Shown in pieces: positions 21,441 through 23,467 of a stretch of DNA of 64,000 bases. The position numbers and the translations under genes were made by a program. Where the stretch lies: contig CALXWX010000001.1 in the NCBI GenBank assembly GCA_944392565.1, positions 251,444 to 315,443 on the forward strand, in the 5' to 3' direction. The notes under the pieces were generated by a model that was not told the origin of the DNA, searched no databases, and worked only from the letters and a program-made list of their open reading frames with translations. The first letter of the stretch is position 1. Each line of letters begins with the position of its first letter. Source of the stretch: an uncultured Alphaproteobacteria bacterium. Lineage in GTDB: Bacteria; Pseudomonadota; Alphaproteobacteria; Rs-D84.

Positions 21441-23210
21441 TTACCCCTTCTTGCGCACCTGAATATGTGTTTCACGCAATTGTGTTTCTGTAACCGGTCC
21501 AGGTGACCCCATCATCAAATCTTGACCGCGTTGATTTGTTGGGAACGCAACAACTGAACGCAAATTTGGTTCATTCAACATAATTTGCACCAAACGGTCC
21601 AGACCAAACGCACACCCACCGTGCGGTGGTGCGCCATATTGGAATGCCGTATACATACCACCAAATTTTTGTTTTACAACTTCTTCGTCATACCCGGTGA
21701 TTTCGAAACAGCGCAACATAACATCTGGGTTATAATTACGCAACCCACCACTGCAAATTTCTGCGCCGTTTAATACCATATCGAATTGCGCCGCCTTGAT
21801 TGACAACGGATCTTTTGTTTTCAATTCATCCAATGTTGCCATCGGATACGAAAACGGATTATGGGTAAACGCAATACCTGTGGGTGATTCTGGATCTGCT
21901 TCAAAGAATGGGAATTCTTCGATCCAGCACAGACGAAATTCTTTTTCATCAATCAACCCCAAATCTTCGCCCAGTTTATTGCGCAACTTGCCTGCGGCCT
22001 TGGCGGCAACATCTGGCGCATCACAGATAAAGAACAATGACGAATTATCCCCGGCAATTTCATGCAGTTTCGCAATGCGTCCCGCATCCAGTTTTTTTGC
22101 AACGGGTCCCTTGGCTTCGTCTGCAAAGACAATATATCCCAATCCGCCCAGTCCCAATTCTTTAACGGCATAATCACCCAACTTGTCAAACCATGAACGC
22201 GGTTTATCTGAACTGTTTGGCGCGGGAACGGCGCGAACAATGCTGCCATTTTCAATCGCATTTGCAAAGATACCAAAATCGGACCCACGGAATATATCCG
22301 TTACATCTGATATTATGATCGGATTTCGCAAATCAGGTTTGTCCGAACCATATTTTAACATTGCCTCGTCAAATGGGATGTGCGGGATATCATCGCATAT
22401 TTTTGCATCTGGCACAAATTCGCGAATAATTTGCGGCATCAGTGTATCACCAACCGCCTGGATATCTGGCAAATCAACGAACGACATTTCCAAATCCAAT
22501 TGATAGAATTCCAATAATCTATCGGCACGCAAGTCTTCATCACGGAAACATGGCGCAATTTGAAAATATCTGTCGAACCCAGAAATTTGCAACAATTGCT
22601 TAAATTGTTGTGGTGCCTGGGGCAACGCATAAAACATACCATGGTGATTGCGCGATGGCACGATAAAGTCGCGCGCACCTTCGGGACTGGACGCTGTTAA
22701 AATAGGCGTTTGAAATTCAGAAAATCCCATTTCCCACATTCTATCGCGAATGAATTTAATCATGCGATTGCGCATTAAAATATTATTATGCAGTGAATCA
22801 CGCCGCAAATCTAAATAACGATATTTCAACCGCAAATCTTCGGAAACACTGTCATCATCGCCAAAGACCTGGAACGGCAAAACATCTGCATTTGTTAAAA
22901 CTTGCCATTTTTCTGCCTGAACCTCTATTGCGCCTGTTGGTATTTTATCATTAACCGCCGCCGCATCACGCGCGACAACAGTCCCAGTAATTTGAATAAC
23001 AGATTCTGGACGCACTTTTTCCAGCGCCTCGTCCCCGCCATCAAACACGCATTGCGTAATACCATAATTATCACGCAGGTCAATGAACAACAATGCCCCA
23101 TGATCACGCTTGCGGTGCACCCACCCGGACAAAATAACCGTTTCACCAACATTTGATTTATTCAGTTCGCCACATGTATGCGTTCTGTATTTTGATTTCA
23201 AAGATAACAT
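21441..23210 (-). CDS. aspS: Aspartyl-tRNA synthetase
   Basis: Class II synthetase charging tRNA-Asp. 589 residues of bacterial type: N-terminal OB-fold anticodon domain (SGWVHRKRDHGALLFIDLRD), motif 2 CFRDEDLRADR, a GAD insertion domain in the middle, and motif 3 FGLDRLVQIM. I start at ATG 23210 with AAAAAAGGGACC upstream; the 21 codons before it belong to the leader. Expression is probably controlled by the T-box leader at 23244-23382, whose UGGC pairs with a GCCA tRNA end as in tRNA-Asp. A terminator follows. Confidence 0.96.
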   Translation of the reverse strand: MLSLKSKYRTHTCGELNKSNVGETVILSGWVHRKRDHGALLFIDLRDNYGITQCVFDGGDEALEKVRPESVIQITGTVVARDAAAVNDKIPTGAIEVQAEKWQVLTNADVLPFQVFGDDDSVSEDLRLKYRYLDLRRDSLHNNILMRNRMIKFIRDRMWEMGFSEFQTPILTASSPEGARDFIVPSRNHHGMFYALPQAPQQFKQLLQISGFDRYFQIAPCFRDEDLRADRLLEFYQLDLEMSFVDLPDIQAVGDTLMPQIIREFVPDAKICDDIPHIPFDEAMLKYGSDKPDLRNPIIISDVTDIFRGSDFGIFANAIENGSIVRAVPAPNSSDKPRSWFDKLGDYAVKELGLGGLGYIVFADEAKGPVAKKLDAGRIAKLHEIAGDNSSLFFICDAPDVAAKAAGKLRNKLGEDLGLIDEKEFRLCWIEEFPFFEADPESPTGIAFTHNPFSYPMATLDELKTKDPLSIKAAQFDMVLNGAEICSGGLRNYNPDVMLRCFEITGYDEEVVKQKFGGMYTAFQYGAPPHGGCAFGLDRLVQIMLNEPNLRSVVAFPTNQRGQDLMMGSPGPVTETQLRETHIQVRKKG

Positions 23211-23243
23211 TTTGGTCCCTTTTTTCTTTGGGCGCCAATTTAC

Positions 23244-23382
23244 AAAAAATTGAAAACGGCACCCGCTTTTCAAAATTCAGGGGCGCAATTTAATCAGATT
23301 GCGCGGTGCCACCCTGGTTTATTACTTTTTATCGGGTTTTGCGCATTCCATGGTTGTCAGTCATATCATCACACGCATGCCC
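23244..23382 (-). promoter_or_regulatory. T-box riboswitch candidate in the aspS leader
   Basis: The minus strand carries an exact T-box core AGGGTGGCACCGCG (23315-23302). It folds as the standard antiterminator: AGGG pairs with CCCT (23282-23279), UGGCACC is the bulge, and GCGCAAT pairs with ATTGCGC. The variable base C (UGGC) fits the GCCA end of tRNA-Asp (discriminator G73), matching the downstream aspS. Downstream, TTGAAAA(G)CGG/CCGTTTTCAA plus TTTTTT (23273-23244) is an intrinsic terminator, and GGTGCC within it can also pair with the T-box GGCACC. Upstream, a short hairpin (23382-23334) contains two GAC triplets as possible specifiers. A full-length Stem I with its conserved loops was not found. 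Confidence 0.78.
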
Positions 23383-23393
23383 AAAAAATTTCC

Positions 23394-23467
23394 TGGTGCC
23401 CTAAGCAAGAATCGGACTTGCGACTCGTCCTTACCAAGGACGTGTTTTACCACTAGACTATTAGGGC
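23394..23467 (-). tRNA. tRNA-Thr (GGT), CCA encoded, with unusual bases
   Basis: Perfect acceptor stem GCCCTAA/TTAGGGC with CCA, anticodon loop TTGGTAA giving GGT. Two irregularities: the T-loop reads TCCGATT (C at position 55 in place of T) and D-stem pair 12-23 is C-A. It lies between its own promoter and the aspS T-box leader with no terminator between, so it should be on the same transcript as aspS. It may be functional or slightly decayed. Confidence 0.8.

Follow-up and report, generated by a model that had tools for sequence, protein, structure and literature searches.

The 5' leader of aspS in the window (here, the whole stretch of 64,000 nucleotides that was analysed) is probably a minimal translational T-box riboswitch, as judged from comparison of related leaders and from modelled folds. 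The element occupies positions 23382-23279 of the minus strand (length ~104 nt) and appears, from its sequence, to be reduced beyond any described form found in our literature search. The source genome (939 kb, 99% complete) is Candidatus Enterousia-like (Alphaproteobacteria), and the nearest named aspS loci belong to Candidatus Enterousia and its kin, most of them recovered from metagenomes of animal guts. Ca. Enterousia is a member of Rs-D84, a reduced, amino-acid-dependent order of Alphaproteobacteria (PMC12306168). The surroundings of the leader are as follows.

21441..23210, minus strand: aspS, bacterial-type aspartate--tRNA ligase, 589 aa (NF001750, 744 bits, cut-off 443)
23394..23467, minus strand: tRNA-Thr(GGT) gene directly upstream of the leader (ARAGORN and Rfam)

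The start codon of aspS is the ATG at 23210 (minus strand). A promoter-like TTGATT-16-TATAAT lies upstream of the tRNA-Thr gene (23510-23483, minus strand), and the tRNA-Thr(GGT) and the aspS leader are probably co-transcribed in the source genome. The same tRNA gene stands directly before the leader in 26 of 79 relatives; several relatives that do not have it there show a TATAAT-like box in its place.

The exact 14-base T-box core AGGGTGGCACCGCG was found where the original prediction had placed it, at 23302-23315 of the minus strand and 91 nt 5' of the aspS ATG. Under a relaxed core pattern (at most one mismatch) 0.15 occurrences per window are expected by chance; one was found, with no mismatches. 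It opens an antiterminator or antisequestrator, both helices of which pair perfectly, as had been claimed.

23279..23315, minus strand: antiterminator/antisequestrator, helices A1 and A2 flanking a 7-nt bulge (sequence and relatives)
23312-23315 / 23279-23282, minus strand: helix A1, AGGG/CCCT
23298-23304 / 23283-23289, minus strand: helix A2, GCGCAAT/ATTGCGC
23305-23311, minus strand: 7-nt bulge UGGCACC between A1 and A2, invariant in alignment A2

The bulge thus has the UGGNACC form of T-box riboswitches. Helix A1 retains 4/4 pairs in 49/49 leaders, as does the core of A2 (4/4 in 49/49); the first A1 pair varies among AU, GC, CG and GU in the relatives and is still paired in all 49. Covariation in the antiterminator was far above that of shuffled and slid controls. 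The Rfam T-box model, the check proposed with the original prediction, gave a weak score (RF00230, 20.8 bits against a gathering threshold of 93; antiterminator matched only), and the best score in the family was 45.7 bits, yet the leader is conserved before aspS in 80/80 relatives. With RF00230 as the sole guide the element would have been dismissed, and a family-built model (R1) was needed.

The search for the same leader in related genomes, also called for at the outset, recovered GGGTGGCACCGCG 60-167 nt 5' of the aspS ATG in all 80 loci from named genomes. Weak RF00230 matches occur in 124 of the 142 family genomes. When the covariance model R1, for which 49 leaders were used, was run on 114 genomes of the order, 93 were positive, nearly every one of them from the family to which the window belongs; many of the positive genomes had contributed no leader to the model, although close relatives match easily. 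A second RF00230 match in the source genome (L002) was disregarded, as it falls within a coding frame. Taken with the covariation, these relatives support the claims of a T-box, an aspS target, an alphaproteobacterial host and tRNA-Asp specificity, as far as sequence can. That a firmicute contig was binned with an alphaproteobacterium is scarcely credible: T-boxes are indeed mainly firmicute elements (PMC2494555), but the leader was seen at 80 separate loci, contigs reached 697 kb, and the AspRS shares ~60% identity with the enzyme of many other Alphaproteobacteria.

Upstream of the antiterminator the leader can fold into one short hairpin, an ultrashort Stem I. The Stem I alignment comprises 84 sequences and 49 columns and is gap-free.

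23334..23382, minus strand: ultrashort Stem I with K-turn, 3-bp helix and apical specifier loop (covariation)
23380-23382 / 23334-23336, minus strand: Stem I outer helix, GGG/CCC
23373-23376 / 23341-23344, minus strand: Stem I C-stem, GCGT/GCGC
23346..23368, minus strand: K-turn and apical loop core TGA-TAT-GACTGACAACC-ATG-GAA, invariant or nearly invariant positions in 82 unique leaders
23356..23358, minus strand: specifier GAC (Asp), the second of two GAC triplets and the conserved one

In the C-stem and the short inner helix together, 92% of cells are paired, compared with 62% in shuffles (84 sequences); the covariation score of Stem I was 0.851 versus 0.265 when shuffled, and slid controls did not exceed 0.226. 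Between these helices lies an asymmetric loop with TGA opposite GA[AG] in nearly all leaders, the GA motif of a Stem I K-turn; we read it as a K-turn signature, with the geometry itself predicted. The position after the GA motif covaries as T.G, C.C and A.A, the pattern expected of a 3b.3n pair. The apical loop follows the consensus G-N-Y-Y-[GA]AC-R-A-M-C in nearly all leaders, and the one triplet reading that suits all of them is [GA]AC with a purine after it. In all 82 unique leaders the triplet is thus GAC (67) or AAC (Asn, 15), before a gene that is aspS. Both GAC triplets that had been pointed out in the hairpin are present, but the conserved specifier is the second alone; in relatives the first may read GCC, GAT or GTC. 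Of the two earlier descriptions, 'ultrashort' holds for Stem I and 'degenerate' does not, the hairpin being constrained, conserved and covarying. The element as a whole is minimal yet under constraint, with the A2 U, Stem II, IIA/B and the Stem III helix lost as well.

Synthetase genes may also be controlled by the enzyme itself, as E. coli ThrRS represses its own translation through a tRNA-like operator. An analogous AspRS operator, in which the hairpin would mimic tRNA-Asp and AspRS would bind it and repress its own translation, would agree with an element that precedes a synthetase gene and acts at the Shine-Dalgarno sequence in the model. It is nevertheless very improbable: the loop UGACA complements the anticodon loop of tRNA-Asp, UGUCA, instead of copying it, the second invariant block UGGCACC fits a tRNA 3' end, and aspS is preceded by canonical T-box parts in sister genomes.

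Complementarity between UGGN in the bulge and NCCA of the tRNA was read from the tRNA genes of the source genome. Its tRNA-Asn ends in GCCA, and the sole tRNA-Asp gene found runs off its contig after GCC, which leaves G73 visible and puts the last A beyond the contig; the predicted fit of UGGC to a tRNA-Asp ending in GCCA therefore holds for G73, with the final A past the contig end. Among the other tRNAs of the source genome that were read, G73 occurs in Arg and Ser types only. Because G73 is common to tRNA-Asp and tRNA-Asn and lacking in most other tRNAs, the UGGC match would support an Asp/Asn reading. None of the 142 family genomes yielded an AsnRS, while the source genome has GatB; in genomes without a second AspRS the AspRS must therefore charge both tRNA-Asp and tRNA-Asn. 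With such a non-discriminating enzyme either tRNA is a sensible signal, which would explain why the specifiers are limited to GAC and AAC. AAC-specifier leaders include L008, L017, L020, L021, L025, L030 and L032; three of the seven matched genomes (G102, G126 and G141) also carry a second AspRS, which speaks against a simple division of labour. The AAC specifier as a mark of genomes without a second AspRS was accordingly not borne out, in what is too small a sample.

Between the T-box and aspS, the following segments were recognized.

23258..23264, minus strand: segment B, GGGTGCC, able to pair with T-box GGCACC (OFF) or with segment C (ON), in 75/85 leaders
23230..23236, minus strand: segment C, GGCGCCC, pairing with B (ON) or masking the Shine-Dalgarno sequence (OFF), from duplex energies
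23214..23225, minus strand: Shine-Dalgarno region AAAAAAGGGACC (segment D), just 5' of the ATG

The GGTGCC that had been proposed as a competitor for GGCACC thus proved to be conserved. Cognate B:C duplexes were computed at -12.8 kcal/mol, compared with -11.4 for swapped species and -7.0 for shuffled sequences; the corresponding values for C with the Shine-Dalgarno (SD) sequence were -8.2, -7.2 and -5.4 kcal/mol. None of 2000 species permutations reached the observed B:C and C:SD means, a test that is inflated by species relatedness. Two states were folded for each leader, an ON state with the antiterminator forced and UGGC occupied by tRNA, and an OFF state with T-box:B pairing forced. The mean computed SD openness of 75 leaders was 0.43 in the ON and 0.145 in the OFF state; when the C region was shuffled the values were 0.23-0.28 (ON) and 0.30-0.37 (OFF), i.e. 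the difference was lost and slightly reversed in 12/12 repeats. Both the mutually exclusive conformers (T-box:B against A1) and the masking of the SD sequence, a feature of class II T-boxes, are results of these computations. Counted against the reading is that the antiterminator was computed to be as stable as, or stabler than, the tRNA-free OFF state in many leaders. Ten short-form leaders do not have segments B and C; in one of them (L073) the SD sequence is GGGTGCC, itself complementary to the T-box. Downstream of segment C and ahead of the SD sequence, eight leaders (L014, L030, L097, L103, L105, L110, L111 and L139) carry a hairpin insert of ~30-60 nt (CCCAC..TCGC...GTGGGACAAG or similar), which resembles a small mobile repeat.

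The terminator hairpin of the original prediction does exist, as a terminator-like hairpin followed by a TTTTTT run at 23269-23253 of the minus strand, and it raises the alternative of a transcriptional T-box in which uncharged tRNA-Asp would block this hairpin before aspS. Comparable hairpins occur in 9 of 85 related leaders, this one included, whereas 0.8 would be expected in shuffles. Yet 76 of the 85 have none, so the element does not generally include a terminator, and the terminator stem is lost even in L033, the closest among the relatives listed (AspRS 96% identical). Segment C and the SD sequence, moreover, co-vary and switch openness against the shuffle control, and riboswitches of Pseudomonadota seldom use terminators (PMC12452182). 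A transcriptional mode is thus improbable as the general one, and the terminator is possibly an addition in a minority of leaders. Because terminators are rare, C pairs with its cognate SD sequence and SD openness switches relative to shuffles, translational control is favoured, and the output is most likely SD masking, as far as the folding model goes.

The proposed translational switch would work as follows. Visible in the leaders themselves are the conserved K-turn hairpin, which presents GAC (or AAC) in its apical loop, and, beyond a short linker, the UGGCACC bulge flanked by A1 and A2. The anticodon of uncharged tRNA-Asp would pair with the specifier, UGACA being able to form five pairs with U33-A37, and the tRNA 3' GCCA would pair with UGGC and stabilise helix A1. 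With A1 formed, B (GGGTGCC) would be free to pair with C, the SD sequence would be open and AspRS would be made. When no such tRNA is bound, GGCACC would pair with B, and the released C would cover the SD sequence, so that translation would fall.

Counted against a minimal T-box are the missing Stem II, IIA/B, Stem III helix and A2 U, together with the RF00230 score far below threshold. Between Stem I and the T-box, neither Stem II nor the IIA/B pseudoknot nor a Stem III helix was found; this interval is an A-rich linker only.

23319..23327, minus strand: single-stranded linker AAGTNATAA; in alignment A2 two A are invariant, and AAGT and A are kept in at least 90%

Stem III has been called indispensable and is flanked by RRRxG and AA (PMC7583486). 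In the leader AAG..AA is kept in the linker without a Stem III helix, and AAGTNATAA is possibly a remnant of the RRRxG-StemIII-AA flanks. At the base of A2, the U of the canonical discriminator G.U has been described as the primary sieve against 3'-aminoacyl tRNA (PMC7583486); here, the pair is G-C in 71/71 ultrashort and 5/5 long aspS leaders, in place of the G.U, whereas T-boxes that precede the second AspRS, TyrRS or a DAHP-synthase-like gene within this class still have the U. The change of U to C, in long and ultrashort aspS leaders alike, and the loss of the Stem III helix would suit a T-box descendant that senses the amount of tRNA-Asp and not its charging, the sieve having been lost. 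We regard this as rather unlikely, given that the AAG...AA flanks of Stem III are still conserved, that C may still fill the pocket, and that a charging-blind switch would be poor feedback. For the T-box in its fullest form the case is about evenly balanced: the ~104-nt element would read its tRNA by K-turn hairpin and antiterminator alone (no Stem II, pseudoknot or Stem III helix, no contact with the elbow and no U sieve of the usual kind), would sense charging by some new means if it senses it at all, would drive a four-segment translational relay, and would have been switched between tRNA-Asp and tRNA-Asn as one AspRS charges both.

Longer relatives of the element connect it with canonical T-boxes. 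A second, archaeal-type AspRS (aspartate--tRNA(Asn) ligase) is encoded in 19 of the 142 family genomes; in the examples read, its gene is immediately preceded by a longer T-box that includes an F-box (CCCGTTA or near), a Stem III hairpin and an AAC loop. At one locus (L024) aspS and the second AspRS gene are divergent, with one ultrashort and one long T-box, and the long form also stands before the normal aspS of one genus in the family (L003, L007). As sister leaders in the same family thus carry F-box and Stem III hairpin, the element is tied to canonical T-boxes; it is placed in the T-box class because of this link and because the core features are present, several canonical discriminator features being absent. 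RF00230 matches 20 of 43 genomes in the order of G358, most of the loci read there being aspS leaders, and elsewhere in the class 8 of 289 genomes, three of them from the window's own genus. At E 1e-4, a threshold that misses the ultrashort form, the window's own included, 0 of 398 phylum-level genomes matched. A canonical T-box with terminator (L143, G376:C1:135170-135410; 110 bits, over the Rfam cut-off) precedes a DAHP-synthase-like gene in another alphaproteobacterial genome of 1.5 Mb, and a T-box with UGGU and terminator (L146, G146:C14:20989-21126) precedes a TyrRS-like gene in another family of the same order.

In the AspRS tree the Enterousia family joins the order of G358, apart from most T-box-less aspS (96/93), under midpoint rooting only. 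The sequences suggest that the aspS T-box ancestry is common to both groups and that Stem II, IIA/B and Stem III were lost in Enterousia. Import of aspS with its T-box from Firmicutes is unsupported, the window-type AspRS being ~60% identical to that of many other Alphaproteobacteria and grouping with a T-box-bearing alphaproteobacterial order, in a tree without firmicute sequences.

T-boxes have been described as restricted to Bacillota or rare elsewhere (PMC12452182, PMC2494555); a 2008 survey reported them in 2 of 125 proteobacterial genomes, Geobacter and Pelobacter, neither of them alphaproteobacterial (PMC2494555). No earlier report of an alphaproteobacterial T-box was found in our search of the openly accessible literature, TBDB apart. 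An element described as essentially Gram-positive is here nearly universal in one alphaproteobacterial family. It bears on which T-box parts are truly needed, as a conserved family without the Stem III helix called indispensable and without the G.U described as the main charging sieve (PMC7583486). Through the flips between GAC and AAC, the choice of specifier is tied to a non-discriminating AspRS, and it becomes testable whether riboswitch specificity tracks enzyme specificity.

The long T-boxes of the same family and class (those of the second AspRS and of aspS in L003, L007, L144 and L194-L204) share with the leader the apical AAC/GAC loop, UGGCACC and AspRS targets, but retain F-box (CCCGTTA) and Stem III hairpin, and those of the second AspRS also keep the A2-base U. 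In C. acetobutylicum a T-box on AspRS is linked to indirect synthesis of Asn-tRNA. One T-box-regulated aspS copy is present there (PMC2494555), and the likeness, by description and not by sequence, lies in a T-box on AspRS and in Asn-tRNA made indirectly, although that organism is a Firmicute. The glycine glyQ/glyQS T-boxes are likewise naturally without Stem II and IIA/B (PMC7583486), but have a long elbow-binding Stem I, Stem III and a terminator, none of which is conserved in the aspS leader. The actinobacterial ultrashort translational ileS T-boxes (TBDB class II) also combine a short K-turn Stem I without the elbow-binding distal part, a UGGNACC bulge and SD masking (PMC7583486, PMC10651847). 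Stem II with its S-turn, the IIA/B pseudoknot and Stem III, all retained in those RNAs, are gone from the aspS leader, which has only the short A-rich linker where Stem II with S-turn and the pseudoknot would stand; in the ileS T-box, both pseudoknot and S-turn have an important role in binding the tRNA (PMC10651847). Compared with class II, the regulated gene here is aspS, the host is alphaproteobacterial, and an extra B-C relay is predicted between the T-box and the SD sequence.
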